Shown one piece after another: positions 2,630 to 38,282 of a stretch of 38,840 bases of DNA. The notes beneath the pieces are model-generated. The model did not search any database. It saw only the letters and a program-made list of their open reading frames with translations, and had not been told where the DNA came from. The DNA comes from a bacterium (lineage in GTDB: Bacteria; Patescibacteriota; Saccharimonadia; Saccharimonadales; OMJO01). Positions within the stretch are counted from its first letter, which is position 1. Every line of letters begins with the position of its first letter. Both the position numbers and the translations under genes were made by a program. The stretch is taken from assembly GCA_900299395.1 (NCBI GenBank), contig OMJO01000018.1, forward strand, positions 1 through 38,840. The letters run 5' to 3'.

Positions 2630-2875
2630 AACGAGTGGAAAAGTTCAGGAAAACATCCTGTTTGGTCTGTGTGTAAGTATTCGGTTTATCCGCAGCTATT
2701 TTACTAAACTCAAAACACTGCCGGTTTTTGCCCAGTTTGTACACAAAAGTTGTTCGTTTTTACACCGCCTTTTTACACACAAAATTTCAGATAATTTATC
2801 TGTTAGTTGCTTATTTTCCACACAATTAACACACCCTATTACTATAAAAACTATCTATATATAAAAGGAGTATTT
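2630..2875. other. dnaA-dnaN intergenic region with further DnaA-box-like motifs (possible second oriC half)
   Basis: TTTTCCACA at 2814-2822 plus degenerate TTTGTACACA and TTTTTACACA; AT-rich; no convincing gene. Confidence 0.45.
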
Positions 2876-3967
2876 ATGAAGCTGCATGTGACACAAGAGA
2901 ATCTTCAAAAAGCACTAAATAGTGTATCTAGGGTTGCAACAGGCAGGGGTACACTACCTATTCTTTCCAACGTACTGCTCAAAATAGTTGGTAACCGTCT
3001 TAGCATAGCTGCAACTAATCTAGATATAGCGATCACCCATTTTATCGGTGCAAAAGTTGAAGCAGAAGGATCAATTACTGTGCCTGCCCGCCTCATGCAA
3101 GATTTTATAAGCAGCCTTCCATCTGGTGTTATTGACTTAGATTTGCAAGATAATAAACTACACATACGCACTGAAAAATACGAGTCAACAATAAACGGAG
3201 TTTCTGCCGAAGAATACCCCGTTATGCCAGCTATCACAAATGGAAAAGAACTTTCTATTGATGCAAAAGTATTAAAAAACGGACTTCAACAGGTGTTAGT
3301 AGCAGCGTCAGTTGATGAGTCACGCCCAGTACTAACTGGTGTTTATATTCATACTCACGAAGGAAAGTTGTTTCTTGTTGCCACAGACAGTTACAGGCTT
3401 GCGGAAAAAGAACTCAATAAAACCCAAGAAGATGTTTCCATGCTACTACCTGCCTCGGCCTTACAAGACTTGCTTCGAGTCTTAAGCGACGCAGATGGAA
3501 CAGTGGATATTATTCATGACGATCAGCAAGCATTATTTAGGGTGGCAGACGTAGAGCTTGTTACTCGACAGATTGATGGTAAATATCCCGATTACCGAAA
3601 ACTAATTCCAAGCAAGTTTGAATTACAGGCCACCTTGAGTAAAGCCGAGTTCATAAACATCACTAAAGTGTCTAGCTTGTTTGCTCGTGAAAGCGCCGGT
3701 AGTATAACTATTCATCTCGACGAAAAAGAACAGCAGGTCAGCATACGATCTATCGCTTCTCAATTAGGTGAAAACGTCGCCAGCGCTACTGCAAAAGTTG
3801 AAGCAGAAGGCACCATCACACTTAACTCGCGGTACGTGCTTGATGCACTACAATGTTTACAAGGCGAAGAGGTAGTTTTCTCTTTCAATGGTAAGCTCGA
3901 CCCATGCGTCATTAAAGATACTAAAAACAAAGATTATATACACGTGATTATGCCGCTAAAGAGCTAA
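2876..3967 (+). CDS. dnaN: DNA polymerase III beta sliding clamp
   Basis: MKLHVTQENLQKALNSVSRVATGRGTLPILSNVLL...; AAAAGGAG before ATG 2876; adjacent to dnaA. Confidence 0.94.
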   Translation: MKLHVTQENLQKALNSVSRVATGRGTLPILSNVLLKIVGNRLSIAATNLDIAITHFIGAKVEAEGSITVPARLMQDFISSLPSGVIDLDLQDNKLHIRTEKYESTINGVSAEEYPVMPAITNGKELSIDAKVLKNGLQQVLVAASVDESRPVLTGVYIHTHEGKLFLVATDSYRLAEKELNKTQEDVSMLLPASALQDLLRVLSDADGTVDIIHDDQQALFRVADVELVTRQIDGKYPDYRKLIPSKFELQATLSKAEFINITKVSSLFARESAGSITIHLDEKEQQVSIRSIASQLGENVASATAKVEAEGTITLNSRYVLDALQCLQGEEVVFSFNGKLDPCVIKDTKNKDYIHVIMPLKS

Positions 3968-3984
3968 GCGTCTACAATAGAGGT

Positions 3985-5058
3985 ATGATAACAAGCCTAA
4001 GGCTACAAAATTTTCGAACCTATATTGATGATACCTTCGAGTTTAATCCCGGGGTTACTATTATCGTTGGACCCAATGCAAGTGGAAAAACAAACCTACT
4101 AGAAGCGGTCTATGTCATGGCAAGAGGAACATCCTTTCGTGTTAAAGATGTAGACCTGATACATCACAATGCTCCTTGGTGTCGCCTTGACGCCGAGGTT
4201 GATTCCGGCGCAAGGGCTATTAAACTAAAGCGATCTGAAAATGGACTAGCCGACAAGCAGGTAATAATTAATACAGAAAAATTTTCTCGTTTTCCGTCAA
4301 GCAAGACATATCCTGTCGTCCTATTTGAACCAAACCATCTGCAGTTGTTCCACCTCGGGCCCGAAGCAAGAAGAGACTATGTTGATGATTTGGCCGAACA
4401 GTTGTTCTCTGGTTACGCACAGACAAGGTCTCACTATAAGCGAGTTTTGGCTCAGCGCAACAAACTTCTCAAACTAAACCCGAAAGATATCCATCAACAG
4501 ATGTTCGTGTGGAATATCAGATTAAGTGAATTGGGTGGTCGTATTGCCGGTATACGAAATGAAACCATAGAGGAGATCAATAAAAACCTTACCGAATTAT
4601 ACGGGCAGCTATCCCATGCAAAGAAAAGTGTGACAGGAAGATATATATCAACAATCCCCATCGATCAGTATAGTAGCCAGTTGCTTCATCGGCTTGAGTC
4701 TGATGTGCCGCGCGAGATTCAACGGGGGTACACTTTGTATGGTCCTCATAGAGATGATTTTATTGTGGAGTTAGGGGATCATGACGCCCAAGAAACTGCT
4801 TCACGGGGTGAAATCAGAACCATACTACTTGCCCTCAAAATATTAGAACTAGGCTTGATAGAAAAAAAGACCGGCAAAACACCATTATTACTACTGGATG
4901 ATGTGTTTAGTGAGCTTGATGGCGTTCGGCGGCAGGCGCTTACGGAAGTGATAGCGAAACACCAGACTTTCATCACAACAACCGATGCCGACATTGTCGT
5001 CCAGCACTTCCTTGATCGGTGCTCGATTATTCCGCTTGGCAGTAAAATCTCAGCGTAG
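3985..5058 (+). CDS. recF: DNA replication/repair protein RecF
   Basis: MITSLRLQNFRTYIDDTFEFNPGVTIIVGPNASGKTNLLEAVY, ...RGEIRTILLALKILE...LLLDDVFSELD. Confidence 0.93.
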   Translation: MITSLRLQNFRTYIDDTFEFNPGVTIIVGPNASGKTNLLEAVYVMARGTSFRVKDVDLIHHNAPWCRLDAEVDSGARAIKLKRSENGLADKQVIINTEKFSRFPSSKTYPVVLFEPNHLQLFHLGPEARRDYVDDLAEQLFSGYAQTRSHYKRVLAQRNKLLKLNPKDIHQQMFVWNIRLSELGGRIAGIRNETIEEINKNLTELYGQLSHAKKSVTGRYISTIPIDQYSSQLLHRLESDVPREIQRGYTLYGPHRDDFIVELGDHDAQETASRGEIRTILLALKILELGLIEKKTGKTPLLLLDDVFSELDGVRRQALTEVIAKHQTFITTTDADIVVQHFLDRCSIIPLGSKISA

Positions 5059-6582
5059 AAAATTGGTGATGGTGTAGCCTTGGGGAGGCAAACTCAGTTT
5101 AGTAAGTTCTTGCTGAATGTCATTATTCACTTGCCGTTTTGTGGCAGGGTCGTAGTCTAGTTCGCCCGTAGCATTGGGTACCAATGCACCATAGTTTGGC
5201 GATAGGTAGATGTAGCTCCGATATACAGAAACATCATTAAGCGCTTGCGATTCGGCGAGGGCTGTAATCTTTTTATCAAGCTCATTACTTGTGTCTGCGG
5301 TGGCAGGATTGATAGCGAGCGCTATTTTTTTGCCATTCTCATTCGTGAGCGTCAACACATAACCATCAGCAGTTTTTTCTGCATCATTGAGTGAGTATGA
5401 GCCGTATCGATACTCTGCAAACCCTTCACCGTTTTTTAGATCTATCCTCAAACTATCCCCTTTTCTCACTGCTACCACTTCCTGGCCCAATGACAAAACA
5501 CTGACGACGTTATTAATATGCAGTGTTTTTTTAAGCTCGCCTGAGTCAATAGCAAACACAGACAAGCCGGTGCTATCAACGGCGCAGATATACTCACTAC
5601 AGAAACTCACTTTTTGGTAATCGTTCTTTGAGCTAAAGTGCACAGTCTCTGGAGAACTAACAATAATCTCACTTCCAGGCTTGGTGTTATTGGTAGGCTG
5701 CTTGCCATAGAGAAACACTGTTTTGTTATCTTTGGCATCCGAAGTGAGCAGGATTAAGCCCTTGCTCTTTGGAGCTGGTTGAGTCATCTTACTTGCTTTA
5801 CCTGATAGGTTTGCCAATTGGAAGCTATCTCCTTCCCCTTGTGGCATAAACACGAGACTACCTTCTGAATACAAAAGACCGTATGTCATGTTTTCGTTAA
5901 GCTCACCTACGGGTATTCGCCGTGTAACTTTCAGATTGTCCCTAAGCACATACAGTATGTGGCTTACCTGTGCATCTTTGGCTTCCTCGCCCTCATCACC
6001 AACACTTAATTGAACAAGAGCGACAGTTCCTTCCTTAGTCTGGGCCATTCCTTCAATAAGCCCCCGTTCATTATTGCTTGCCACCATTTGTGTGTAGGTA
6101 GCTTGGGTGGCTGTAGCGGGTACGTGCTGGTTAATGGCGCCGAAATCTCCCCCGCAGTTGTATGAATATAACTTTCCCGAAATAAGTTGGAAACACGAGG
6201 CTGGGTTATTACCTACGAACGTTCTTTCTCTCTCTTTCTGCATTGGTAGAACAACAGATGTTGTGCCAAAAAAACCACCCGATCTAACGATCTTAAAACC
6301 GTTCATCTCGTCTTGTCTTGCCATGATCTCAAAGTTGCCACGCTTCACGAGCCGTTTGATAGAAGCGCCACCACTGACAGTTTGTGTCTTGTTAGACTTT
6401 TGATCAGTCAATACGTATTCGTACATGCCATCCTTGCCACCACTTGCTTCAATGGTAATGAATGACATTTGACTAACCCAATACAGGGCTCCCAATACGG
6501 CCACAAGGATTAGGCCGATGATCAATCGTCGTAAAAGGCGATTCGGCTGATTGAGCGTAGTATACGTGTTGTTATCTAGCAT
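5050..6582 (-). CDS. Single-pass membrane-anchored protein with large extracytoplasmic region; last gene of the T4SS-like operon
   Basis: 510 aa; N-terminal TM LLRRLIIGLILVAVLGALYWVSQ; 7 bp overlap with the upstream gene; converges with recF (9 bp overlap). Confidence 0.65.
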   Translation of the reverse strand: MLDNNTYTTLNQPNRLLRRLIIGLILVAVLGALYWVSQMSFITIEASGGKDGMYEYVLTDQKSNKTQTVSGGASIKRLVKRGNFEIMARQDEMNGFKIVRSGGFFGTTSVVLPMQKERERTFVGNNPASCFQLISGKLYSYNCGGDFGAINQHVPATATQATYTQMVASNNERGLIEGMAQTKEGTVALVQLSVGDEGEEAKDAQVSHILYVLRDNLKVTRRIPVGELNENMTYGLLYSEGSLVFMPQGEGDSFQLANLSGKASKMTQPAPKSKGLILLTSDAKDNKTVFLYGKQPTNNTKPGSEIIVSSPETVHFSSKNDYQKVSFCSEYICAVDSTGLSVFAIDSGELKKTLHINNVVSVLSLGQEVVAVRKGDSLRIDLKNGEGFAEYRYGSYSLNDAEKTADGYVLTLTNENGKKIALAINPATADTSNELDKKITALAESQALNDVSVYRSYIYLSPNYGALVPNATGELDYDPATKRQVNNDIQQELTKLSLPPQGYTITNFLR

Positions 6583-7877
6583 GATGCGGCACCTCCTCCT
6601 GAACCGCCCCCAGAACCTAAGCGAAGCAAAATATCACGAGCAAAATTCATGCGGTTTTGTATTTTTTCTGGTCCATCAGCTGAAATCTCGTAGTATTTGT
6701 GCCATATGAACGCCGCTTGGCCTGCGTCACTTTCCTGCTGGACTTTTGCCCAGTCGCCGCGGCCGGTTGCTTCTTTGTAGAGCCATTCCAACTGTGTGCC
6801 CATATCCCCATCTTTTGTGCTACGGCTGACGGCAAAATCGTGAAGTCCTTGTTGTCGACCTTTCGATGTCCACTGTGCCAACCCATACCCAGTGCTTCCG
6901 TCTATTCTCATGGTATCGTCGAGGCTAGAGGGTTTGCCCGCGACAGACGTTTCACCTCGTGAATTCGTGCCACCATACTGAACACGGCGTGGCTCAAAAC
7001 CCGACTCCGCCTGCAGGTTACCCATGATACCTGCTGCTTGCGGCGGTGTTAGTCCTTTTGATATCAAAAAGTTCCAAACCTTTTCAGCGTTATCCTTGCC
7101 CGCCAGAAGTGTGCAGCCACAACCGCCACCGCCACCCTTGCCACTAACTGCGTCAATGATGGCCGATGAAAGTTGTGGATAGGCGCCATGCACAAAGTCG
7201 CTGCTGCCAGGAATCGGCAAACCAGGCTGAATATTTAACGGGTCCTTATCGGCCCCAAAGATTGCCTTATAGCGGCTAATAACGGTATAGCCTTGTGACT
7301 GGGCGTTGTCGTAAATTACTTTATTGCGCGCACTCCAGGTAGCTGCGGTGTTCGCTCTCGTAGCACCGATGTCCACCCAGTAATACTTTGCATTTGGTGC
7401 GATAGCCTTGAGTTTCGTCATGAGGCTAACAAGATTTTGATTGAATGGATCATCAGTTGGGTTGGTGCCAAGCACTATAACTATAGTTCCGGCTCCACTA
7501 ATGACTGTTCTGTCACCATCTACAGCATTGAGGGCGCTTGTGCGCACTTCTGTGCCAGGCTGCGTAATTGAACGTCCGCTGTCGTGGTTCACAAAACTGG
7601 TACCCCCCACAGCAGTCTGCAGCTTACCCTCGATTCCATCACCACTGAGCCCTGTGCTAATGGAGTCACCGATTACATATGAGTTAGCACCGCCCTTTTG
7701 CCCCGTGCCAACATCACAGGTTGAACCGCTATGATCATTTGTCTTGTAGTGGACACTGTTGCGGTAAATGGATTCCAGATCAAGATCTGACAGTGCAGAT
7801 ACGAGTGGCGCGCTCACGCAAAGCAGTACAAAGTAGGAAACAGAAACAAGCCTCAGTAATTTTCCTATGTTTCTCAT
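6576..7877 (-). CDS. Secreted SGNH-hydrolase-like domain fused to phage-tail-lysozyme-like domain
   Basis: Signal-peptide-like N-terminus; SGNH blocks GDSISTG / VLGTNPT / DFVHG; then NAEKVWNFLISKGLTPPQAAGIMGNLQAESGFEP...STGYGLAQWTSKGR typical of phage-tail lysozymes; ATG at 7877 forms ATGA overlap with the upstream stop. Confidence 0.75.
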   Translation of the reverse strand: MRNIGKLLRLVSVSYFVLLCVSAPLVSALSDLDLESIYRNSVHYKTNDHSGSTCDVGTGQKGGANSYVIGDSISTGLSGDGIEGKLQTAVGGTSFVNHDSGRSITQPGTEVRTSALNAVDGDRTVISGAGTIVIVLGTNPTDDPFNQNLVSLMTKLKAIAPNAKYYWVDIGATRANTAATWSARNKVIYDNAQSQGYTVISRYKAIFGADKDPLNIQPGLPIPGSSDFVHGAYPQLSSAIIDAVSGKGGGGGCGCTLLAGKDNAEKVWNFLISKGLTPPQAAGIMGNLQAESGFEPRRVQYGGTNSRGETSVAGKPSSLDDTMRIDGSTGYGLAQWTSKGRQQGLHDFAVSRSTKDGDMGTQLEWLYKEATGRGDWAKVQQESDAGQAAFIWHKYYEISADGPEKIQNRMNFARDILLRLGSGGGSGGGAASC

Positions 7878-10800
7878 TGTCCTGTCCCACATCTGCTTGG
7901 TGTATCAAGTGGATCCCAGTGCCAGGATTCGTTTGAATACTGTTTAATGTGATAGGTCTCGGCGTTGTTGTACAGCCATGTCCAAACAGGGCTTGAGGGG
8001 TCACGGGCACGGCCGGAGCAACTGGTTGAACTGGTCCCTTTGAGGTGTGTTCCACTGAAGTCGATAGCTAATCCCATCTGGTGTGGGGAGTACCCAGGTC
8101 GCGCAACAAAACTACCATCACAAGTGCCACCACAAAGGTCGGTCTGGTGGGCATTAGTCCTAAAGGAGCTTTCGGCGTGTAAGCCAACGCCTGCTGCGTT
8201 TGCAGCTTGCACAAGTGCAAACCAGGCCCCAGACACGCGCGAGTTTACCAGTGCCTGACCATTAGCCCCCTCGACGTACCATTTGCCCCCGGGCTGACTT
8301 TCTTCACTTGAACTTTTGAGGTTAGGAAGTGCACACAAGCGAATCATAACCTTAACCCCGTCATGATAGCCTTCCTGAGGCTGGGCGATAGGCGTGGTAC
8401 CATACGCGCACGGTACATTGGTAGAATCCGCAAACATGTCTCCTACAATATCTGTGCCTGTGTTTCCGGTGCTCGGTCCACTGCCGCCCGTTGGGGTTCC
8501 CAGTTCTTCGGCAGGAAGTAGGCTATCGTCAAAAATAGCTCCTGCACTACCCACTGCGGCATCTAATAATAGACATGGGTTTTCGCTGTTGTGTACATCC
8601 ATTCCTGTATCTGGATCAATGCTCACATCGTTTGCCCAGTCTTTATTTTTCTGGGCACAATAGCTTTCCGTCAACGTCGATGGGTCGGTATTGACTGCAG
8701 CACCATTGGGGTCGTAGCCGTATTGCGGAATACCAAACGGGTCATCCTGGCTAGCGGCGGCGACTCGGTTTGTGCCAAACATACTAAACATTTTTGAAAA
8801 CGGGTTAATAAGGCCAGCGAATGAATGTTGTATGGCGGCAGTCTGACTTATAGGCATGGCCATGGCAAGCTGCGACACCATCGAATACGAGCTGTTTGTA
8901 TCAAACATACGAGCAAAAAATGGTTGTGACTGGAATTTCATTTTACGCTGGGCTTCCTGTTCGGACTGAATCTGCATAACGGTTGCGGTGGATAGTCGTT
9001 TACCCCCTAGTCCATATTGGGCGTAGCTTGACCCCGCGGCATCTGCTCCACCGGCCAACATATTAAAGCTACGAGCACCACTCATGTTGTCGGATATAGG
9101 TGATGGGATAAAGTAGGTGGCGACGGCCGTAAAGACTTCCTGGGCTTTTGCTCCCATCCATTCCTTCAATGGATCGAGAATGAATCCAAATGGTTTGAGT
9201 AGGAGGTCAATCGCACTGCCAGCTAGACCCTGGGCTTTGTCCCATACCCAGCCAGCTGAGTTATTCCATTGGTCGGCAAGGAATTTTAGTGGTGCCAGAG
9301 GGCCATTATTGAACAGATTAGATAATTCGGTGAGGAAGTTACTGACCAATAAACTTTCCTCGGGACAGATTAACTTTCCGACAGGGATAAGGCTACCATT
9401 GTCACAGGTGTAGTGCCCCGCTTCACTCGCTGGCGCAGCGGCAAACGCACTGGGCAAGAGTGAATCAAATGCTGTTTTCTGTGATGAACTGCCCATGAGA
9501 TTACTGTAGAGGGGGCTGTTCTCGGCCGATTCACCGTTTTTTGTATTATTCCCTAGCATGTTCACAAAAGATCCAGTCAAATCGGCTGTGGTATCGCCTG
9601 CCTTCTGCTCATCAGCGTGAGATCGGGCCAACATATAGTAACTAACCATCGCTGTCGAATTGAGCACAAATGCCCAGCGTTTAATCTTTGGTCCGGCACT
9701 GGCTGTTGTCTCTATAATGTTTGCAATGGTATGTATCCAACCAACGACGGGTACTGTTTTAGAGGCCGCATCGGCAATTTCTTTATTCAGAACAGTTTCA
9801 ATAATGTAGTTCATTAGCCCATTCTCGGATATTTTTATTGAGGCATCCGCTATTTTTTGGACAGTATCCTCGGTATATTGTTGGCCGCGCTTTTCCAGAT
9901 AATCACGGACCTGTTGCTCAAGTTTGTCTCGACGCTCATTGTCGTTACCGTCTGCCGAAGAGGGGGCATCATTACAGCCGCTCGACACAATACAAGAAAA
10001 AGCAAAGCCTAACATATCACTATGTGGCTCCACGACTCGACGAATAACCTGTAGCTTCGCTGCCTCTTGTTTTTTGTCTGCCCAGTCCGCTATTTTGTCT
10101 CTTCCATCGCACGCAAACATACAGCGTTTGATGCCATACTTTCGTTCGAGCAAATGGCCCACCTTGAAGCGGTACATTACCCGTCTAAACTTTGTCTCTC
10201 CATCCAATGCCTCAGTAATCTTGGCGCGTATGGTTGCCCGAGATGCCTGCGGCATATCATTGATATCAAAAATTGGTATTTGGCCAGGGGCCGACTTTAG
10301 TACGGCTTCACCAACCCCCGGAGCTTTTAGATAATAGTTTGTGCCTCGCTTTTCAAACTCAATGCCGTATTTGGTGGCGAGCTTATTCTCTAATTTGTCC
10401 TCACGCCACGCGCGGAACAATTTCTCCACCTTCCCTTCACCGACAATGTTGTCGACACAGTCTTTATTGATACGGGTGCTTGTACAACCAGGTTTGTTCA
10501 TGGCAGTCAGGACGTGTTCACTGACATACTTTTGTAAAAGCTTCTGTGTGTATTTCTCGACTGCTGATTCGGAGGTGGAAAAGAATTTGTTTTGCAGGTT
10601 CTCAACAATATGCACCAGTTTTAACGGTATTAGCGACATCATAATCGTGACGATAATACTAACAACACCGGCTGTAATGCCCCCACCTAAGAGTACTCGC
10701 CTGCGGTTTAGGCCATTAAGGGTGGACTCGAAACGTCGAATACCAGTTGCTTCTTCTTGTTTGAAGCCTGGCCCAATTTGGTCTAGGGCGTTATCTAGTT

Positions 10801-11002
10801 GGCTGGCTTCGGTGGAGTCACCCTTTGAGTTTGGGCTTTCAGCACCTTCCTGTTCTGCCGACTGCAGGGCATCAGAATCCATTGCCGGCGCACTATAATC
10901 ACGCTCAAGATCAGCTATTTCCTTTGCGCGATCATCATCGGACATATCCAAGTCGTCATAGGAGCCTGGTTTTTTGACTTTTTCTTCGTCATAGACAGCC
11001 AC
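7874..11002 (-). CDS. Large membrane protein with C-terminal VanY-type D-alanyl-D-alanine carboxypeptidase domain, T4SS-associated
   Basis: 1042 aa; TM RVLLGGGITAGVVSIIVTIMMSLIPL; C-terminal SPHQMGLAIDFSGTH and ESWHWDP match the LAS/VanY SxHxxGxAxD...HW zinc-site pattern. Confidence 0.75.
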   Translation of the reverse strand: MAVYDEEKVKKPGSYDDLDMSDDDRAKEIADLERDYSAPAMDSDALQSAEQEGAESPNSKGDSTEASQLDNALDQIGPGFKQEEATGIRRFESTLNGLNRRRVLLGGGITAGVVSIIVTIMMSLIPLKLVHIVENLQNKFFSTSESAVEKYTQKLLQKYVSEHVLTAMNKPGCTSTRINKDCVDNIVGEGKVEKLFRAWREDKLENKLATKYGIEFEKRGTNYYLKAPGVGEAVLKSAPGQIPIFDINDMPQASRATIRAKITEALDGETKFRRVMYRFKVGHLLERKYGIKRCMFACDGRDKIADWADKKQEAAKLQVIRRVVEPHSDMLGFAFSCIVSSGCNDAPSSADGNDNERRDKLEQQVRDYLEKRGQQYTEDTVQKIADASIKISENGLMNYIIETVLNKEIADAASKTVPVVGWIHTIANIIETTASAGPKIKRWAFVLNSTAMVSYYMLARSHADEQKAGDTTADLTGSFVNMLGNNTKNGESAENSPLYSNLMGSSSQKTAFDSLLPSAFAAAPASEAGHYTCDNGSLIPVGKLICPEESLLVSNFLTELSNLFNNGPLAPLKFLADQWNNSAGWVWDKAQGLAGSAIDLLLKPFGFILDPLKEWMGAKAQEVFTAVATYFIPSPISDNMSGARSFNMLAGGADAAGSSYAQYGLGGKRLSTATVMQIQSEQEAQRKMKFQSQPFFARMFDTNSSYSMVSQLAMAMPISQTAAIQHSFAGLINPFSKMFSMFGTNRVAAASQDDPFGIPQYGYDPNGAAVNTDPSTLTESYCAQKNKDWANDVSIDPDTGMDVHNSENPCLLLDAAVGSAGAIFDDSLLPAEELGTPTGGSGPSTGNTGTDIVGDMFADSTNVPCAYGTTPIAQPQEGYHDGVKVMIRLCALPNLKSSSEESQPGGKWYVEGANGQALVNSRVSGAWFALVQAANAAGVGLHAESSFRTNAHQTDLCGGTCDGSFVARPGYSPHQMGLAIDFSGTHLKGTSSTSCSGRARDPSSPVWTWLYNNAETYHIKQYSNESWHWDPLDTPSRCGTGQ

Positions 11003-11014
11003 GTTCAGCTATCC

Positions 11015-12934
11015 TCATCTCCCCGGGGTGAGCCGGTTAGTTAGGTCTATGGTGCCCTGCGGCTGCGCCACGCCACCTTGCTGGATTTGCTGAACTTGCT
11101 GTGGGTTGGTAGTGATAAGCTGCATTTCGCTCGGGCTGGCAGTAACTTGAATGTGTACATGGTTTTGCCCGGCAAAGAACAAGCCTTGGCCGACCGGGAA
11201 CTGGCTCAAACGCTTCTTTTCCTCACTGGTAAGTTTGAAAACATCTGCCAGCACATCAACGGCAGAAGAAGATTGCTTAAGGAGAATTTGCATGCTGGCG
11301 TTAGCCACGATCGCCCGGCCCATACGGCTACCCATAAAGTCCTCGACATCCTGAGTGATGGTAGTAATGCCAAGGTTGTATTTACGGGCGCGTTTAGCCA
11401 GGCTGAAGAGGAAGTTGGCAGAGTCTTCATACTTCATGAGCTGCCAGGCTTCGTCCACCACCAGAATACGCTTCTTTTGGTCGCTCTTTGTCTTGTTCCA
11501 GATGAAGTTCAGTACGATGTACATGGCTACCGGGCGAAGTTCGTCCTCGAGGTCGCGTACGTTAAAGACCACCAACGGATTGTTGATGTCGATGTTACTT
11601 TGCTGCGAGAAGATGCCGGCGAATGTCCCAGAGGTATATTTGCGGAGTCTTTGAGCTAGTTGCGGACCGGTGCCACCCATATGCAGCAGTGTGTCGTACA
11701 GGTCGTTGATTGTCGGCGGTGGTGATTTATGGGTGAGGGGGTCATTCGTGATACCCGCCTTGGCGTAGGTTTCGATAAGTGCAGCGTCAAGATCTGCCTC
11801 TTCGACTGGCGTGAGCGCCGGAGCAATGATGCCCGCTTGTCCACCACTCGCAGCCATCTGGGCTTGTGCGCCACCCATCATCAAACGAAGTAGCCCGTGG
11901 AGCGTAATGAGGTTACTGCGCAATGCGTTGTCCGCTTCTTCGGTGTCTACAACCTGTGGTAGATCAAACGGGTTGATGCGCGTGTTGGAGTTTAGGCTTA
12001 GGCGTACATACGCACCACCAACGGCATCTGCCATGCGTTGGTACTCATTCTCGGGGTCGATAATGAATATCTCGGTACCAAACATGAGGCTACGAAGGGC
12101 CTCGAGTTTAACCGTGAATGATTTACCGGCACCAGACTTAGCAAACACCACCGAGTTGCCGTTTTCTAGACTAAACCGGTCAAAAATAACGAGCCCAGAG
12201 TTATGCATGTTGATGCCGTACAAGATGCCATTGTCCTGGCTGAGGTCTGCCGAGGTAAATGGGAAGCTCGTGCTAAGGGCACCGGTGTTCATGTTGCGTC
12301 GGATTTGCAGCTGGTCGCTAAATTGTGGAACGGTGCTGTTGAGTCCTTGTTCTTGCTGAGAGGTAGCCGGCTTAGAGTAGACCAACTGTTGACCTAGCAT
12401 AGACTCAACTTTGTGTGCAATAAACTCAAGCTCATCCGTGGAAGAGGCGTAGATAGTAAAGTACAAACCAAAACGGAAAAATCGTTCCTCTCCGACTTGT
12501 AGCTTGTCGCGCATTTCTTCAGCGTCAATGATCGCTGCCTGCTTACCTGGGTCACGCACTCGGCCTTTTTCTGCGTCTATTTGAATGCCAGCTTCGAGTT
12601 GACCCACCTTTTTGCGCAGGTTTTCTAAAACAACCTGGCTCTCCACAGGGTAGATAAACATAGATAAGTCCATCACTTCATCGATGTTAACCATGCTACT
12701 CAGCCAGCCGGTAAATACCTGCCGCGGATAGCCGTAGACGTAGTATGTCCGTGCGTAACGTGTGCCAATCTGGAAATGAGTGCCAGAAAACTCAATTGAA
12801 CTCGGCGAGATAAAGTCACGGAGTGCGGTGATACCCTTTTGGAAGGCGAGATTTACTTCTTGCTGCTCGCGTATTTGCTGCTGTTGGGCAAGTGCTACTG
12901 GATCAAGTTGTTCTTTCTTCTTGCGGCCTATCAT
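11015..12934 (-). CDS. virB4: VirB4/TraC-like type IV secretion ATPase
   Basis: Walker A FAKSGAGKSFTVKLEALRS, IIDPENEYQRMADAVGG, Walker B RILVVDEAWQLMKYEDSANFLFSLAKRARKYNLGITTITQDVEDF. Confidence 0.88.
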   Translation of the reverse strand: MIGRKKKEQLDPVALAQQQQIREQQEVNLAFQKGITALRDFISPSSIEFSGTHFQIGTRYARTYYVYGYPRQVFTGWLSSMVNIDEVMDLSMFIYPVESQVVLENLRKKVGQLEAGIQIDAEKGRVRDPGKQAAIIDAEEMRDKLQVGEERFFRFGLYFTIYASSTDELEFIAHKVESMLGQQLVYSKPATSQQEQGLNSTVPQFSDQLQIRRNMNTGALSTSFPFTSADLSQDNGILYGINMHNSGLVIFDRFSLENGNSVVFAKSGAGKSFTVKLEALRSLMFGTEIFIIDPENEYQRMADAVGGAYVRLSLNSNTRINPFDLPQVVDTEEADNALRSNLITLHGLLRLMMGGAQAQMAASGGQAGIIAPALTPVEEADLDAALIETYAKAGITNDPLTHKSPPPTINDLYDTLLHMGGTGPQLAQRLRKYTSGTFAGIFSQQSNIDINNPLVVFNVRDLEDELRPVAMYIVLNFIWNKTKSDQKKRILVVDEAWQLMKYEDSANFLFSLAKRARKYNLGITTITQDVEDFMGSRMGRAIVANASMQILLKQSSSAVDVLADVFKLTSEEKKRLSQFPVGQGLFFAGQNHVHIQVTASPSEMQLITTNPQQVQQIQQGGVAQPQGTIDLTNRLTPGR

Positions 12935-13878
12935 CGTAGTTCCTTGTCGAGATTAGGCTGCGGAGCGGCGCCTTGACCCTTGGTGATAACAGGAGCGGTC
13001 AAATCGTCGAAGTTCTTGAGTTGCTGGCGGGTCGCTGTATCGGGATTGTAGGTGTCGTAGTAGAGCTCAATAAGTTCTTGCGTATCGAGCGGTAAACCCT
13101 GAATATCGCATTGTAGCAAACCAGCAAGCACAGCTTGTACGCGGTTTCGAAGCTCGTCTTTGGCTTTCACAAGGTCACCTTCATTGATGGTGACGTGCTG
13201 TTCCTTGCTCTGAAATAGATCCATGAGCCCCGTAAAAAAGCTCTTACTTGATACAAGTGCCTGCTTGGTCTCGGAAAGCGGGGAATATGGTATAACCAGG
13301 TAGAATCTTTTATCCATGATGTTTGTTTGGAGTGACAGATTGTCGATGTAACCAATGTAGTCTTCCATAAGTAATGCAAGCAACATGTTGTCGTGCTCGG
13401 AGCGAATCTTGTCGAGCTTTTCTATGTATGGGCGCAAGTCAACCTTTTGAGATCGTATGAATATCTGGATATCAAAATACAAGGAGTTCAGGAAGCCTTG
13501 ATATGCTGCTTCAACTGCTTCTCGCTCCTGAGGACTCATTAGGTCGAAGTTGATGGATTTGACCATGACGACCGATCGGAAGGACCCGTCGTTCATGATG
13601 ACAATTCCATCGCGAATCTCGGCAATTTGTAGCGTGTTTTGGGTGCTGTTCGGGTTGCTTCGTGCTCCTTTGACTGGCACGGCGCTGGCAGGTGAAACAG
13701 CAGCTTGCATACCTGGCTGTTGGGGAAATGGTGCCGGGGGCGCCGGCATTTGGGTAGCGGCTACTGCTGGCTGAGCGCCGTATGAGCCATATGGATTAGG
13801 GGCTGTGGGCTGCAGCGGAACAGCCGCAGGATTATTCTGCGGAATGTTTGGTAATTGGTTGTTCGCGTTTGGATTCAT
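12931..13878 (-). CDS. TraC/VirB4 N-terminal-domain-like protein (no ATPase motif)
   Basis: IVIMNDGSFRSVVMVKSINFDLMSPQEREAVEAAYQGFLNSLYFDIQIFIRSQ resembles VirB4/TraC N-domains; ATGA overlap with virB4; Pro/Gln-rich N-terminus. Confidence 0.6.
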   Translation of the reverse strand: MNPNANNQLPNIPQNNPAAVPLQPTAPNPYGSYGAQPAVAATQMPAPPAPFPQQPGMQAAVSPASAVPVKGARSNPNSTQNTLQIAEIRDGIVIMNDGSFRSVVMVKSINFDLMSPQEREAVEAAYQGFLNSLYFDIQIFIRSQKVDLRPYIEKLDKIRSEHDNMLLALLMEDYIGYIDNLSLQTNIMDKRFYLVIPYSPLSETKQALVSSKSFFTGLMDLFQSKEQHVTINEGDLVKAKDELRNRVQAVLAGLLQCDIQGLPLDTQELIELYYDTYNPDTATRQQLKNFDDLTAPVITKGQGAAPQPNLDKELR

Positions 13879-13916: not shown

Positions 13917-15029
13917 CTAATGTAGCTTTACGACTACTTCATCTTGTGGTGGCTCCGTGTCTCGCATTTTGTCTGCTTGGCGAGCGATTGTGGCCACGTT
14001 CAGGTCGTCATTATTTGCAAGGTTAAGTATAGCAGGATCAGGGGTTGGTGTCGAAGGTGATTGTGCTTTTGGTGGTACGTTTTTTGATGGCTTATGGTGG
14101 TGTTTCGACCGAAGGGATGAGGATACTGGCTCAACAACTCGTAAGTGATAGTTGGTGGGGTCTGGGTCATCCTCCTGTTCGTGGATCTTTTTTAGGAATG
14201 CTTGTTCGTCGGCAGCAGTGATTGGGGCGGCTGGAACAGTTGGCTGGGTGTACTCGGTGGCTCCGGGAGCGATCACTGAGGGGCTGGCAAATGCCGCTGT
14301 GCCAGGTGCGGTTGGCTGTGGAGCAGAGTTCATAAACCAATAATTGGCTGGGGTTTGTGCGGCTTGGCCAGTTGCAGCTTGCTGCATACGGGAAAAAGCT
14401 TCTTTGCGATGTGCCTGTGTCGAGGCGGCAATCATTTCATTGAAATGCTGCGCAGTCGGGCTGCTCTTTTCATCCAATACGTCATCCATGGGTGTAACGT
14501 CATAGTTAGGCACATCCTGAGGTATGGTGGTTGGGTCAATCAGTCGGTCTGAATCTGCTTGGTCAAGCACGTAAGAGGGCTGACTAAAGAGGTTGACGCT
14601 TACATTCTTGATTGCCCAGCCGCGACTATCGATAGTGTTAGCCAGGGCCTGCAGACGACTTTTTACCTCGGTCTGGCTTAATCCGTTAGTGAGCTGTTTT
14701 TCGATACGTTTTGGTGCAGTTATAGTCACAAGATCTTTCATGCCACTTTGATCCCAGATGCGTCGGCGGGGCTTCAAAAAGAACCGAACCTTCGCCAGCA
14801 GCCATATTTCCGTTGGCTGGTCTTTGCCCCATGGAAACGCGAGAAAGCCACTAAATAGTATGATTGGCGAAAACACAGCAGCAATGACCCAAGTGCCTTT
14901 AGTCAGGCCCAAAATGCTTATGTAAAGCCCCACTGCTGTAACCGCACCGTAGATAAACTGTTTAAGGGTCAAAGGGCCCAGGAATTTATCCTCGGCTTCG
15001 ATGTCCTGGAGTACCTTATATGTTGCCAT
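13917..15029 (-). CDS. PrgI family T4SS inner-membrane protein with long C-terminal tail
   Basis: MATYKVLQDIEAEDKFLGPLTLKQFIYGAVTAVGLYISILGLTKGTWVIAAVFSPIILFSGFLAFPWGKDQPTEIWLLAKVRFFLKPRRRIWDQSG. Confidence 0.75.
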   Translation of the reverse strand: MATYKVLQDIEAEDKFLGPLTLKQFIYGAVTAVGLYISILGLTKGTWVIAAVFSPIILFSGFLAFPWGKDQPTEIWLLAKVRFFLKPRRRIWDQSGMKDLVTITAPKRIEKQLTNGLSQTEVKSRLQALANTIDSRGWAIKNVSVNLFSQPSYVLDQADSDRLIDPTTIPQDVPNYDVTPMDDVLDEKSSPTAQHFNEMIAASTQAHRKEAFSRMQQAATGQAAQTPANYWFMNSAPQPTAPGTAAFASPSVIAPGATEYTQPTVPAAPITAADEQAFLKKIHEQEDDPDPTNYHLRVVEPVSSSLRSKHHHKPSKNVPPKAQSPSTPTPDPAILNLANNDDLNVATIARQADKMRDTEPPQDEVVVKLH

Positions 15030-18275: not shown

Positions 18276-19052
18276 ATGGTAAAAACATCAAAACTTACGC
18301 AAAAGATACTCATCGCCCTCTCATTTTTGCTGGGACTATTTATTGTAGGCATGCCCCTCTCTGCTGCTGCTATACCCGGTCGCGATGATTACAGTAAGAA
18401 CTTTTTATATAAGCCGGATCCAAAATGTCTGACTGGGTCAAAAGGAGCAGACTTTAATGTGGTGCACGGCCGCAATGATATGACGGTGTACGCTTGTATT
18501 CGTGTCCGTGGTGATAACGTCGGCTATTCTATAAGCCCTTTGCCCCCACCCAACCAAGTAATGCAAAACAATGCGTGCGGCGAGACGTTCATGAGTGGCT
18601 CAAGTGTTGAGGAGTACACCGTGAATGGTGGTGGATTTGGACTGCTTTGTGTCATTGTGACAGATTCCACCAAGTGGGACATGACCGACTACAAAACACA
18701 GAACGAGAATCGCACAGGTAGTTATGTAACTGGTGATGCTCAAGGAAGTGGCGATACATGTGGCGAGGGTGATAGTGCTGTTCACACCTCCATCAACATC
18801 GGGTGTCGTGGGCAAGGAAATGGCATCTTGGATCTTACCTTCGCGCTGATTCGATTCCTCTCCATCGGAGTTGGCATCGTGGTGATAGGGTCAATTGTGG
18901 TGGCGGGCATTCAGTACACAGCGTCGCGGGGAGACCCCAGCGCTACTGCCAAGGCTTTGGCGCGGATTAACTCGACGGTGATCGCTCTCATCATTTACAT
19001 CTTTAGCTATGCTATATTGAACTGGCTTATTCCAGCGGGGATATTCAAATGA
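18276..19052 (+). CDS. TrbC/VirB2-like two-TM protein with N-terminal Cys-containing ectodomain
   Basis: Signal peptide, ~150 aa ectodomain with six Cys, then FALIRFLSIGVGIVVIGSIVVAGIQYTASRGDPSATAKALARINSTVIALIIYIFSYAILNWL. Confidence 0.65.
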   Translation: MVKTSKLTQKILIALSFLLGLFIVGMPLSAAAIPGRDDYSKNFLYKPDPKCLTGSKGADFNVVHGRNDMTVYACIRVRGDNVGYSISPLPPPNQVMQNNACGETFMSGSSVEEYTVNGGGFGLLCVIVTDSTKWDMTDYKTQNENRTGSYVTGDAQGSGDTCGEGDSAVHTSINIGCRGQGNGILDLTFALIRFLSIGVGIVVIGSIVVAGIQYTASRGDPSATAKALARINSTVIALIIYIFSYAILNWLIPAGIFK

Positions 19053-19438
19053 TGGATTTCTTATATCGATTTGCGGCAAGTTGTGGGGGTGGCAATCTTC
19101 TTGGCTTCCCTTCTTGGTACAAGTATCTTCCTGGCACTACCGAAATGGCCAAGGACGGTTCAGGTGTAGATATAGGTACGGTCTGCACACCAAAGATCCA
19201 GTCAATTAATGACGTATGGCTCATTGTGGCTGCTGTTGTTGAGATTTTGCTTCGTGTTGCTGCACTCGCCGCTATCGCGCTGATTGTATGGGGTGGCATC
19301 CAATTTGTGATGAGCCAAGGAGAACCCGATAAAGCTGCCAAAGCCAGGTCAACTGTTATCAATGCGATCGTTGGTCTTGTGATTGCCGTAACGGCAACAG
19401 TATTAGTTTCGTTTGTAGCAGGACAATTTAAGCCATGA
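19049..19438 (+). CDS. TrbC/VirB2-like pilin-type protein
   Basis: LRVAALAAIALIVWGGIQFVMSQGEPDKAAKARSTVINAIVGLVIAVTATVLVSF; ATGA overlap with the preceding gene. Confidence 0.65.
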   Translation: MMDFLYRFAASCGGGNLLGFPSWYKYLPGTTEMAKDGSGVDIGTVCTPKIQSINDVWLIVAAVVEILLRVAALAAIALIVWGGIQFVMSQGEPDKAAKARSTVINAIVGLVIAVTATVLVSFVAGQFKP

Positions 19439-19761
19439 GTTTATTCTTGATCACCCATACGCTCGCTGCTGTCGTCCAGAATTGTGACCCAAATCAAGCA
19501 GATGACGGTTCTTGTCAAACAATTTTCCCGGCCATTAAGGGCACGCCAGATAACGTGAAGATTGCCTTGCAGATTGTTTTTGGGGTGATCGCAGTCGTGA
19601 CTGTCATATATATCGTTCTGGCGGCCATTCGTTATCAGATGAGCCTTGGTGATCCTGGCGCCACCGCCAAACTGCGGAACGCCATCATTTATGCAGCTAT
19701 TGGCTTGGTGATTGCACTGAGTGCGGAGATTATTGTTAGTTTTGCGCTAGGGAGGGTTTAA
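19435..19761 (+). CDS. TrbC/VirB2-like pilin-type protein
   Basis: IVFGVIAVVTVIYIVLAAIRYQMSLGDPGATAKLRNAIIYAAIGLVIALSAEIIVSF; ATGA overlap. Confidence 0.65.
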   Translation: MSLFLITHTLAAVVQNCDPNQADDGSCQTIFPAIKGTPDNVKIALQIVFGVIAVVTVIYIVLAAIRYQMSLGDPGATAKLRNAIIYAAIGLVIALSAEIIVSFALGRV

Positions 19762-19762
19762 G

Positions 19763-20161
19763 ATGCTCAAACGACTTATTGTTGTCATGTTGTTGGTCGC
19801 GACCTTGCTTCCGCTTAGCGTGCCCTCTCGGGTACGAGCCGTCGATGTTATTGATCCGGTTTGCACCAACCCAAACGCCGTCGAAAAACCAAAGATATGT
19901 AATGATAATCAGCCAAATGCTCCAGAGAATCCGATCGTTGGCCCCAATGGCATCCTAACCAAAGTTGTTAATATTCTGTCGCTTATCGCAGGTATACTCG
20001 CTGTTTTTACCATTATCATTGGGGGTGTCAAAATGATTGTCAGTAACGGCGATAGTAATAGTGTTGCTTCTGCCAAACGTACGGTGTTATATGCCGTCAT
20101 TAGTCTGGCTATTGTGGCGTTTGCCCAAGTTGGCGTTTATTTCATATTGAACAAATTATAA
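19763..20161 (+). CDS. TrbC/VirB2-like pilin-type protein
   Basis: Signal peptide; ILSLIAGILAVFTIIIGGVKMIVSNGDSNSVASAKRTVLYAVISLAIVAFAQVGVYFI. Confidence 0.7.
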   Translation: MLKRLIVVMLLVATLLPLSVPSRVRAVDVIDPVCTNPNAVEKPKICNDNQPNAPENPIVGPNGILTKVVNILSLIAGILAVFTIIIGGVKMIVSNGDSNSVASAKRTVLYAVISLAIVAFAQVGVYFILNKL

Positions 20162-20175
20162 GAAAAGGAGAGCAT

Positions 20176-20607
20176 ATGCGCATACGTCTATGGATTACCG
20201 CAGTTACCGTGCTTGTTTTGTCGCTGTTAATAGCAGCACCAGCACGTACATCTGCGCTGTTTGAAAATGCCAAGGACGAGGCCTGTAATGGTATTAACTT
20301 GGACACTGGTACTGCTGGATGTTCGGATACAAAAGGCAGTGTTAATGGTATTCTCGCTACGGTAATAAATATCTTTTCACTCGTAGTGGGGATAATAGCT
20401 GTAATTATGATCATTATCGGTGGTCTAAAGTATGTGACGTCCCAAGGAGACAGTAGTGCCATATCGGGTGCCAAGAATACCGTGATTTATGCAGTGGTCG
20501 GTCTTGTGATTGTGGCGTTTGCCCAATTCATAGTTCGTTTTACGCTTAACAAGACAAAACCATTGCCCCAATGTTCTGCTGGCCAAACACAGAACTGCAC
20601 GCCCTAG
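20176..20607 (+). CDS. TrbC/VirB2-like pilin-type protein
   Basis: Signal peptide; VINIFSLVVGIIAVIMIIIGGLKYVTSQGDSSAISGAKNTVIYAVVGLVIVAFAQFIVRF; AAAAGGAG RBS. Confidence 0.72.
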   Translation: MRIRLWITAVTVLVLSLLIAAPARTSALFENAKDEACNGINLDTGTAGCSDTKGSVNGILATVINIFSLVVGIIAVIMIIIGGLKYVTSQGDSSAISGAKNTVIYAVVGLVIVAFAQFIVRFTLNKTKPLPQCSAGQTQNCTP

Positions 20608-20620
20608 ATAAAACAGGTTA

Positions 20621-20650
20621 TTGAAATTCGTGAAACCTTTATGGTATAAG
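20621..20650 (+). promoter_or_regulatory. Putative sigma70-type promoter for the last pilin-like gene
   Basis: TTGAAA 20621-20626, 18 nt spacer, TATAAG 20645-20650. Confidence 0.5.
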
Positions 20651-20681
20651 TAAGTCAGCATATAGATAAGAAAGGATAATC

Positions 20682-21098
20682 ATGATCCAAACACTAAAAA
20701 AATTCATCGCTAAGCTTTCGATTGCGACATTGCTCGTTGTGCCTGTTTTTGCACCAGCAATTGCGCACGCAGCAGATGTAAACGGTAGCCTTTGTGAAGG
20801 GGCAAACCTTCAAGTAGACGCCAAAGACTGTAACCAGAATGGCGACCCAAAGCAGAAAGTAAACGACCTGCTGACAACAGTCATCAACATCTTCTCACTT
20901 ATCGTGGGTATTATTGCAGTTGTTATGATCATCATCGGTGGTCTGAAGTACATTACTTCTGGCGGTGAATCGTCTAACATCACCGGTGCCAAGAACACCA
21001 TTCTCTACGCCGTTATTGGCCTAGTGGTGGTTGCGCTGGCGCAGTTTATCGTTCGTTTCGTACTCGTGAAAGTTACTCAAAGCGGCAACGGCAATTAG
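20682..21098 (+). CDS. TrbC/VirB2-like pilin-type protein (candidate major subunit)
   Basis: Signal peptide ending AIAHA-A; VINIFSLIVGIIAVVMIIIGGLKYITSGGESSNITGAKNTILYAVIGLVVVALAQFIVRF; own promoter and terminator. Confidence 0.72.
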   Translation: MIQTLKKFIAKLSIATLLVVPVFAPAIAHAADVNGSLCEGANLQVDAKDCNQNGDPKQKVNDLLTTVINIFSLIVGIIAVVMIIIGGLKYITSGGESSNITGAKNTILYAVIGLVVVALAQFIVRFVLVKVTQSGNGN

Positions 21099-21113: not shown

Positions 21114-21147
21114 ATAAAAAACCCGCGGGTTTCGCGGGTTTTTTATT
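21114..21147 (+). terminator. Rho-independent terminator after the pilin-like array
   Basis: AAAAAACCCGCGGGTTTCGCGGGTTTTTT: GC stem AACCCGCG/CGCGGGTT followed by T tract. Confidence 0.88.
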
Positions 21148-21771: not shown

Positions 21772-22187
21772 ATGATTTTAGAGAAACTAATTGGCACCAT
21801 TGCACCACACCAGTGTATTCGTTGTGGTAGTGAAGGTAGCGTTGTCTGTGCTTGGTGTCTTTCAGACATACGCGTACCAGTGCCACCACGGTGCTATCGA
21901 TGCAAAACTCTCACGCGAGACTTTCGTGTATTTTCAAAATGCAAACGAAGCAGTGCTCTGCGTCATGTATGGGTTGCGACTGTCTATGACGGATTGGCTA
22001 AAAACGTAATTCGTACGTTTAAGTTTGACCGGGCGCAGAGTACGGCTGGCATCATTGCTGCCCAAATGACCGATATTCTGCCGCAGCTGCATAGTGAAAC
22101 TGTAATTGTACCCGTATCATCTGCCACGAGTCGGATTCGGCAGCGGCAAGATCGGTGAGTGCTGTTGTGTTTGCCCAAAAAACCTAA
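21772..22187 (+). pseudogene. comF: comF family gene with internal deletion/frameshift
   Basis: First 128 codons match ComF (CIRCG...CAWCL, WVATVYDGLAKNVIRTFKFDRA, VIVPVSSATSRIRQR) then TGA; the next frame reads ARSVSAVVFAQKT* (stop 22185-22187), which resembles a ComF C-terminus; the phosphoribosyltransferase core in between is missing. Confidence 0.7.
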
Positions 22188-23136: not shown

Positions 23137-23559
23137 AGCGAAGATAACCAACCGTCGTGCCGCCCGCGCTGACACCTTTAGCCACGGTGCGAAAGGGAGC
23201 AGCCAAGGTGCCCGGGTTGGCATCGCTGCCGTTTGTAGCTACATACTTTACATCTGCAGGATGGTTTGGGTCTGGTATGGCATACGCAGTGCCATAGTCA
23301 GAATGTCGATAGTTTCATACGGGCCATTCCCGGCCCTGGCGGCAGTAAACCGAACATAACTGTTATTCGACGCAGTCGGGTCTCCAGTAATTTTTGCAGC
23401 GTTTCCGCTAAGCGTACCGTTCTCGGCCTCGACGCTTACCGAGACCGTCGCTGCTCGCGTTAGTAAAAGCGCAATCGTGCCACATATCGCAAAGAGAACT
23501 ACAAATGTTGCGACAGTAGTAGGTGTATTTTTGAAAGTTTTACGGAGCTTTTTTATCAT
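23137..23559 (-). pseudogene. Remnant of a secreted CBM6/35-like plus right-handed beta-helix protein, frameshifted and truncated
   Basis: Frame 1: signal/TM then VSVEAENGTLSGNAAKITGDPTASNNSYVRFTA; after ~23300 a different frame reads YGTAYAIPDPNHPADVKYVATNGSDANPGTLAAPFRTVAKGVSAGGTTVGYLR*. Confidence 0.65.
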
Positions 23560-23673: not shown

Positions 23674-23889
23674 CTATTGTTGCTCGCTTATCATCGTGTC
23701 ATTTTGCAGAGAATTTGGTGCAGGTGGTGTCGCGGCTTTTGTGATTAAAAGCGCAATCGTGCCAAAAATAGCAAACATTATCGTAAATATTAGAATTCGT
23801 ACTGTCGGATTACTGATAAAATCATGTAGCCGACGAGATGGCTGACCAATATTTTTCACTGTATTACCCTCATTTGTTATTGTGAGCAT
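23674..23889 (-). CDS. Short single-TM protein sharing its leader with the neighbouring pseudogene (possible second remnant)
   Basis: ATG 23889; ILIFTIMFAIFGTIALLITKAATPPAPN vs ATFVVLFAICGTIALLLTRAATVSVS in 23248-23559. Confidence 0.4.
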   Translation of the reverse strand: MLTITNEGNTVKNIGQPSRRLHDFISNPTVRILIFTIMFAIFGTIALLITKAATPPAPNSLQNDTMISEQQ

Positions 23890-23924
23890 CGCATTCCCGC
23901 CGAAGATTGTCAATCTATAAAGCA

Positions 23925-23953
23925 TTGACAAAAATAAACATAAGTGTTAAAAT
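23925..23953 (+). promoter_or_regulatory. Consensus sigma70-type promoter upstream of the GC-rich small secreted ORF
   Basis: TTGACA 23925-23930, 17 nt spacer, TAAAAT 23948-23953. Confidence 0.7.
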
Positions 23954-37412: not shown

Positions 37413-38282
37413 CTATTCGTTATCAAGAGTGAGTGTGGTGCAACGAATGTAGCCACCACCCTTACCGAGCTCACTGACTTCTGGGGTGATAGTCTTGAGT
37501 CCTTCGGCCTCGATGGCTTTTTGGAGCTGTGGCGCCCTAGAGCTCATAATGACGGTTTCGCCCGTGGACACCAGGTTACAGGCGAATCCTTCCTTTGCTT
37601 CTTTTACCGAAATGCGGATCTTTTTGAGGGGTAATGCCTCGATTGTTTTACGACTTTCGGGCAAGAATGCCTCCGGACAGTAGGCAATCAGGTCAGGCCG
37701 TAAGACTGACAGGGCGAGGTCGATGTCGTAGTAGTAGCTGTCGGGCCACCCAGTAACTTTGTTCGTAATCGTTGGCCCAAAGCCCCACAGTGCACGTTTT
37801 GGCACGGTCTGTAAGCTTATAATTTGGTACCCAAGAATTTTACTGATCTGTTCGTGTGCTTCCTTGTCTGTGCGGTATTGGCTACCAGTAAATACATAAT
37901 TGCCACAGGGCAGGGCATCACCCTGTCCGCTAAAGCGTAAACCCTCTGGCAAGCGAACAATTGTCTTGCCGAGGTTCTTTAAAACTTGTTCAGCGTACGG
38001 TGTCTCGGCCTGGCGTTTGTTAGGTAATGACGAAAGAAGGGCTGTGTTGCCACGGCACAGTGCCCAGTTAGCCGTATAGACGCCGTCTTGGCAGTCTTTT
38101 GGGGCAGGTACCTGGATAACTGATACGCTGGCACTTTCCAGTGCTTGTTTAATGCTGGCGTGTTCGGCTTTGGCTTTCTCTATATCAACCGGAATACGAT
38201 CATCCATGTACGCATTGATAGCGTATTGGTCGCTAAAGTAGTCGGCGCCGGACATGAGAACAGTTTTGTTGATGATAGGCAT
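37413..38282 (-). CDS. Amidinotransferase / arginine deiminase-DDAH superfamily protein
   Basis: GVYTANWALCRGNTALLSSLPNKRQAET, GQGDALPCGNYVF, FACNLVSTGETVIMSS, C-terminal GKGGGYIRCTTLTL with putative catalytic Cys. Confidence 0.75.
   Translation of the reverse strand: MPIINKTVLMSGADYFSDQYAINAYMDDRIPVDIEKAKAEHASIKQALESASVSVIQVPAPKDCQDGVYTANWALCRGNTALLSSLPNKRQAETPYAEQVLKNLGKTIVRLPEGLRFSGQGDALPCGNYVFTGSQYRTDKEAHEQISKILGYQIISLQTVPKRALWGFGPTITNKVTGWPDSYYYDIDLALSVLRPDLIAYCPEAFLPESRKTIEALPLKKIRISVKEAKEGFACNLVSTGETVIMSSRAPQLQKAIEAEGLKTITPEVSELGKGGGYIRCTTLTLDNE

Follow-up and report, generated by a model that had tools for sequence, protein, structure and literature searches.

Position-specific orthology of a six-gene pilin array in Saccharibacteria points to a division of labour among its subunits

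We report that six consecutive VirB2-like pilin genes of a Saccharibacteria T4SS locus occupy positions, here called slots 1 to 6, that are orthologous and ordered across a bacterial order. The array (18276-21098, from the first start to the last stop) lies in a window of 38,840 nucleotides, the whole stretch of DNA analysed, and is a further example of a published array type; what is new is position-specific orthology as a test of what the copies are. The fixed order, a predicted promoter ahead of slot 6 and fusions of neighbouring slots suggest that the subunits share out the work instead of being interchangeable variants, probably within a heteromeric pilus or channel in which slot 6 would supply the abundant subunit and slots 1-4 a coupled minor set. 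Position-specific orthology turns the notion of many pilins, perhaps for host variation, into testable roles (an abundant slot, a tip slot, coupled-base slots) in a machine that at least one cultured Saccharibacterium cannot do without in its epibiotic growth.

Introduction

VirB2/TrbC conjugative systems usually have one pilin gene and a homopolymeric pilus. The original prediction for this window invoked that rule, which holds for most conjugative systems. Patescibacteria depart from it: according to PMC12102498, 383 of their assemblies hold 441 VirB2 arrays of 2-11 pilins each, with an average identity of 25%; their T4SS genes are often near dnaA, and the arrays have been suggested to serve host versatility by analogy with Bartonella and Anaplasma. 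In Southlakia epibionticum the T4SS is essential, as is a series of its predicted pilins (PMC10633639), and a review describes six pilins that are structurally conserved and divergent in sequence (PMC12857230). In PMC12102498 and PMC10633639 we found no account of position-specific orthology, a slot-6 promoter or fusions, and a literature search on slot orthology and the major pilin of the array returned only PMC12102498, PMC12857230 and a Rickettsia paper.

As far as the available descriptions of published Patescibacteria arrays go, we found no difference between them and the array analysed here. Those of PMC12102498, of S. epibionticum (PMC10633639) and the 'Sec secreted array' of TM7x belong to the same PF18895 family and have several divergent copies, six in S. 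epibionticum as in this window; like the present array, they cluster with VirB4, PrgI/VirB3, VirB6 and TrsD, mostly without a relaxase and often near dnaA.

Materials and methods

Pilins were called with an iterated profile in 50 loci from relatives within the order and labelled by position. Position profiles were built from 29 arrays of six, leaving out the tested genome, and the margins given for the source array in Table 1 likewise refer to profiles built without its own genome. For the hold-out, 80 loci were found via VirB4 and analysed with frozen profiles, giving pilins in 38 loci new to the analysis. Codon bias was compared within loci, and selection in four same-genus pairs, two of which were unsaturated at silent sites.

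Results

As first noticed from the sequence, six consecutive plus-strand genes share a two-helix core and diverge at their N-termini, and all six match PF18895 (T4SS_pilin; Table 1). The core consists of two hydrophobic helices flanking a basic loop (G-[ILVF]-[KQR]-[YFM]...S.G[DE]...AK/AR). Genes 2-6 score 41, 39.5, 40.3, 43.2 and 53 bits against the curated cut-off of 26.6; gene 1 scores exactly 26.6 bits as a protein and 25.7 bits in the genome scan. Beyond these six genes, no PF18895 match (E<=10) was found in the whole 705-kb, 38-contig assembly. For TrbC/VirB2 (PF04956, cut-off 27.9), gene 6 passes with 30.4 bits, gene 5 lies just under the cut-off with 25.5 bits (E 1.6e-5) and genes 1-4 do not pass. 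All six also match the Mbov_0395-family pilin-like protein of mycoplasma ICEs (NF045849) at 18-33 bits, below its cut-off of 40 (best E 2.9e-8, slot 3), and are not members of that equivalog. The mycoplasma ICE T4SS and the present one are both monoderm, and these sequence matches hint that monoderm T4SSs may possess pilins not borrowed from diderms but their own.

Table 1. Features of the pilin array and of the adjoining T4SS cluster, in window coordinates
Feature	Coordinates	Strand	Evidence
Slot-1 pilin-like protein, 258 aa	18276..19052	+	PF18895 E 6e-6; slot-1 profile top by 58 bits
Slot-2 pilin-like protein, 129 aa	19049..19438	+	PF18895 E 2e-10; slot-2 profile top by 44 bits
Slot-3 pilin-like protein, 108 aa, short N-terminus	19435..19761	+	PF18895 E 6e-10; slot-3 profile top by 12.5 bits
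Slot-4 pilin-like protein, 132 aa	19763..20161	+	PF18895 E 3e-10; slot-4 profile top by 33 bits
Slot-5 pilin-like protein, 143 aa	20176..20607	+	PF18895 E 4e-11; slot-5 profile top by 10.6 bits
Predicted slot-6 promoter	20621..20650	+	TTGAAA - 18 nt - TATAAG, extended -10 (TGGTATAA at 20642-20649); scored 10/12
Slot-6 pilin-like protein, 138 aa	20682..21098	+	PF18895 E 4e-14; TrbC E 4.5e-7; slot-6 profile top by 22.5 bits
Possible Rho-independent terminator after slot 6 (tentative)	21120..21145	+	AACCCGCG-GGTTT-CGCGGGTT, then T-rich; found by eye, not listed by scanner
VirB6-like membrane protein, 1034 aa	15038..18142	-	Weak TrbL/VirB6 match E 0.7; nine hydrophobic segments
PrgI/VirB3-like protein	13917..15029	-	PF12666 PrgI E 1.7e-9
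TrsD-like protein, N-terminal VirB4-type domain	12931..13878	-	NCBIfam TrsD E 1.9e-6, VirB4_plasma E 1.6e-6, both far under cut-offs
VirB4-type ATPase	11015..12934	-	PF19044 P-loop_TraG E 2.7e-27
Large protein with C-terminal VanY peptidase domain, cluster member	7874..11002	-	PF02557 E 2.9e-11
Phage_lysozyme2-domain protein	6576..7892	-	PF18013 E 8e-34

The array stands head to head with a minus-strand T4SS cluster, 133 bp from virB6; the cluster runs from 18142 down to 5050, includes one protein without a match and lies next to dnaA/dnaN (DnaA, DnaN and a RecF/SMC-like ATPase are encoded at 1202-5058). These neighbours are MPF-FATA-like, VirB4 and PrgI/VirB3 being recognised by match, TrsD below cut-off, and VirB6 by a weak match and topology alone. 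The VirB6-like orthologue is opposite in strand to the array in every relative of the order where it is within reach, and the VirB4-type ATPase is 65-88% identical in 14 relatives and 73-89% identical to genes in records mostly named Candidatus Saccharibacteria, which identifies the source as a Saccharibacterium. The Phage_lysozyme2-domain protein is a possible VirB1-like wall hydrolase. No match to the relaxase families PF03432 and PF01076, the two searched, was obtained in the ~89%-complete assembly (E<=10), which agrees with the published view that this machine is probably not a conjugation system. No coupling protein was recognised within the cluster; a HerA/TrwB-like ATPase encoded away from it, on a different contig (L086 7-2445; G000 contig C28 near 16468), passes the cut-offs of the coupling-protein Pfams PF10412, PF12696 and PF02534. 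The T4SS is chromosomal and apparently non-conjugative.

Two side observations concern the same cluster. The VirB4 function is apparently divided between the TrsD-like N-domain protein and the separate ATPase protein. The VirB6-like proteins of two near-identical relatives, L046 (5520-8285) and L085 (9354-12122), can hardly be aligned over their C-terminal ~270 residues, while elsewhere they are 74-100% identical per 50 columns and slots 1-3 of the two pilin arrays are all but identical, silent sites included; this suggests local recombination or a fast-changing tail.

The profile of a pilin's own position scored best for 161 of 174 pilins when the genome tested was left out (chance, 1 in 6), and the misses fell largely in arrays with shifted or truncated positions. 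Most of the 50 order relatives keep the order 1-2-3-4-5-6, and a copy beyond the six almost always belongs to slot 6. Among the 38 hold-out loci, 21 read exactly 1-2-3-4-5-6, four carry an additional slot 6 and three deviate slightly, the 1-6 order thus holding, extra slot 6 included, in 25 of 28 further arrays; the remaining 10 loci contain the first one to three slots only. In all 38, pilins and virB4 are on opposite strands. The same six genes, not single-copy orthologues, recur in relatives, and copy number, which the original prediction proposed to compare, is nearly fixed.

A FastTree phylogeny of 286 cores shows 35 slot-label changes, versus 175-189 with labels shuffled within arrays, a test that is not independent of the leave-one-out profiles because its slot labels are profile-assigned. 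Genome labels change 248 out of 285 times on the same tree, the paralogues of one genome failing to cluster together. Each of slots 1-4 has a near-clean clade; a single clade holds slots 5 and 6, which are not cleanly separated, with a likeness of 0.52 between slots 5 and 6 within a genome and of 0.49 for slot 6 between genomes.

PF18895 proteins occur in nearly all of 148 genomes drawn from the phylum. Slot-profile margins are small and scrambled in 20 arrays from other classes, on which ground we rejected the idea that the slots are older than the class. In the one locus that came from a different order within the class, slot 1 is retained and, less clearly, slots 5/6. The six-slot set looks to have been fixed in the ancestor of the order, and perhaps of the class.

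Junctions 1-2, 2-3 and 3-4 overlap or abut, typically as ATGA, in 85, 78 and 98% of arrays (slot 2 overlaps slot 1, and slot 3 slot 2, by 4 bp in the source array), and the median gap is 12 bp at junction 4-5 and 73.5 bp at junction 5-6. We predict from conserved sequence that slot 6 has a promoter of its own: the extended -10 TGNTATAA is present in 31 of 45 gaps before slot 6, mostly 27-48 bp ahead of the start codon; the expectation from dinucleotide shuffles is 2.4%. It recurs in 16 of 25 hold-out 5-6 gaps, and all 39 regions upstream of slot 1 lack it. A consensus promoter scan of the array returned nothing above shuffles; the slot-6 promoter came from cross-genome comparison, and is absent from the scanner's list because the scanner demands T as the last -10 base.

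Use of C-ending Phe/Tyr/Ile/Asn codons is highest in the array for slot 6 (0.516, with 0.34-0.39 in slots 1-5), and the slot-6 bias exceeds that of the rest of its own locus in 38 of 46 loci (p 1e-8). It exceeds that of VirB4 only slightly (by 0.049; 15 of 25 loci), so the bias would point to higher, not extreme, expression. These features make slot 6 a candidate major pilin.

Some relatives encode two slots in a single ORF: slots 2+3 in five loci (L050, L054, L062, L077, L109), slots 3+4 in two (L048, L052) and slots 1+2 in four hold-out loci (L120, L124, L131, L144). Fused slots are always neighbours and in order, and among the loci examined we saw no 4+5 or 5+6 fusion. The fusions, some of which could be assembly errors, support a fixed-ratio complex of slots 1-4 without proving one, because the overlapping first three junctions ease chance fusion.

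The two-helix hairpin is present in all six slots, with a positive loop net charge throughout, and identity between genomes is 38-59% for hairpins and 16-24% for ectodomains. By hydropathy alone, a signal-like segment precedes the core in 95-100% of proteins of slots 1, 4, 5 and 6 (98-100% for slots 4-6), in 64% of slot 2 and in 17% of slot 3. A cysteine pair stands shortly before the hairpin in slots 4 (42/43), 5 (39/45) and 6 (64/68), and the source proteins of slots 4 and 5 each have a signal helix and two such cysteines. Slot-3 proteins are short and for the most part have neither signal segment nor cysteine. Across relatives the ectodomain is longest and most variable in slot 1, whose proteins end in a C-terminal P-(G/A)-G motif; in the source protein a signal helix, a Cys-containing ectodomain of ~150 aa and a C-terminal hairpin with this conserved ending follow one another, and we regard slot 1 as a candidate tip or adaptor subunit. 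The long slot-1 ectodomains that were scanned contain no Pfam domain at cut-off besides the pilin core. An extreme case is a slot-1 protein of 714 aa in one relative (L047 11647-13791), whose long ectodomain has no Pfam match.

AlphaFold models slot 6 as a signal helix and a helical hairpin (56-92/97-135) with only moderate confidence (mean pLDDT 77.6, pTM 0.50), and slot 1 with a confident hairpin (183-251) and an ectodomain mostly below pLDDT 50. A Foldseek search of the slot-6 model against the PDB gave no significant match (best E 1.5; archaeal conjugation pilus 8dfu E 5.1); a two-helix hairpin is too generic for such a search. In the pair L043/L067, slots 2, 4, 5 and 6 have a dN/dS of about 0.06-0.23 and slot 3 a dN of zero; the comparison between relatives that had been proposed thus gives dN well below dS where dS is unsaturated, that is, purifying selection where measurable.

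Discussion

As to expression levels, filament assembly, tip and base assignments and substrate, we infer the following model. The products of the six genes would be six distinct and long-separated VirB2-like subunits of the Saccharibacteria chromosomal T4SS, each sitting in the membrane as a helical hairpin with its N-terminal part extracytoplasmic. Slots 1-4, together with slot 5, would share a coupled message that yields similarly low amounts of each, and would act as the minor-subunit set of base, adaptor or tip, slot 1 being the likeliest tip or host-contact subunit given its large variable ectodomain. Slot 6, made in excess from its own promoter, would be the major subunit of a pilus, a short one, or of a channel, with VirB4 as its power source and VirB6 as its anchor, for use on the host cell. 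The essential pilins of S. epibionticum (PMC10633639) speak for this model; the moderate AlphaFold confidence for slot 6, the lack of a significant PDB match, the incomplete separation of slots 5 and 6 and the small excess of slot-6 codon bias over VirB4 speak against it. Of the two interpretations first proposed, a combinatorial or hierarchical pilus and pilin switching, the hierarchical one gains indirect support from six orthologous, ordered and non-interchangeable slots, a slot 6 that is codon-biased and, by prediction, separately promoted, and adjacent-slot fusions.

Tentatively, this division of labour may go further, to an obligately heteromeric VirB2-type pilus or channel whose six orthologous subunits have fixed places. 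The genes would then follow each other as the subunits are assembled, slot 1 supplying the tip or cap, slots 2-4 the adaptor or base and slot 6 the shaft, and this arrangement would predate the diversification of the order; we regard this as possible rather than probable. If true, it would be a design for which we found no description among T4SS pili in PMC12102498, PMC10633639 and PMC12857230.

Alternatively, the hairpin proteins might make up a translocation channel or platform of the T4SS that is embedded in the membrane, with subunits in unequal amounts and no extracellular filament. A channel without any filament would fit the same data as a pilus: Gram-positive T4SSs are generally without pili (PMC10633639), it is the hairpin core that is conserved while ectodomains vary, and fusions of adjacent slots suit a ring of fixed stoichiometry. 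We nevertheless consider it rather unlikely, since the similarity to PF18895 and TrbC/VirB2 and a separately promoted, codon-biased slot 6 would better suit a polymerised major subunit. Like the conjugative VirB2/TrbC pilins, the proteins analysed here are small and secreted, with two hydrophobic helices and a basic loop, and PF04956 is matched by gene 6 and, just under its cut-off, by gene 5; they differ in being of six kinds, one with a large ectodomain.

Much less probable is that the array is a bank of interchangeable pilins expressed alternately for antigenic or host-range variation, a role proposed for virB2 arrays in Bartonella and Anaplasma and, in PMC12102498, suggested for those of Patescibacteria. 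The N-termini are indeed divergent (16-24% identity between genomes versus 38-59% for hairpins), and the virB2/trwL arrays of those genera, cited in the same source, are likewise tandem VirB2 paralogues of a host-interaction T4SS; those arrays are read as variation, whereas the present one consists of ordered orthologues across a bacterial order. The slots are not recent duplicates, purifying selection acts where measurable, and the overlap of slots 1-4 makes it unlikely that slots are switched singly. We found neither recent lineage-specific copies nor silent cassettes, the copies being order-wide orthologues with no further ones in the assembly. With a single array, paralogues that do not cluster by genome, nearly fixed copy number and dN well below dS where dS is unsaturated, the switching half of the original prediction is left unsupported, and we rejected it on slot orthology, gene overlap and the absence of silent copies. 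Least credible of all is a gene-dosage array of functionally equivalent pilins diverging neutrally, for although some genomes have additional copies of slot 6 that suggest dosage or recent duplication, slot-specific signatures are kept (the Cys pair of slots 4-6, none in most slot-3 proteins, the C-terminal P-G-G of slot 1) and six recognisable ordered slots would not survive neutral divergence.

Other features of the window

Downstream of the array, a 128-aa ORF at 21772-22158 has a weak double zinc ribbon match (PF18912, under cut-off) and looks like a ComF-type protein reduced to its N-terminal half; it is possibly truncated. Two small minus-strand ORFs (23248-23559 and 23674-23931) have a near-identical hydrophobic segment (FAICGTIALLLTRAAT / FAIFGTIALLITKAAT) resembling duplicated signal or anchor ends of surface proteins. 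The ORF at 37413-38282 encodes a dimethylarginine dimethylaminohydrolase-like protein (PF19420, E 8e-11), possibly of arginine-related metabolism.
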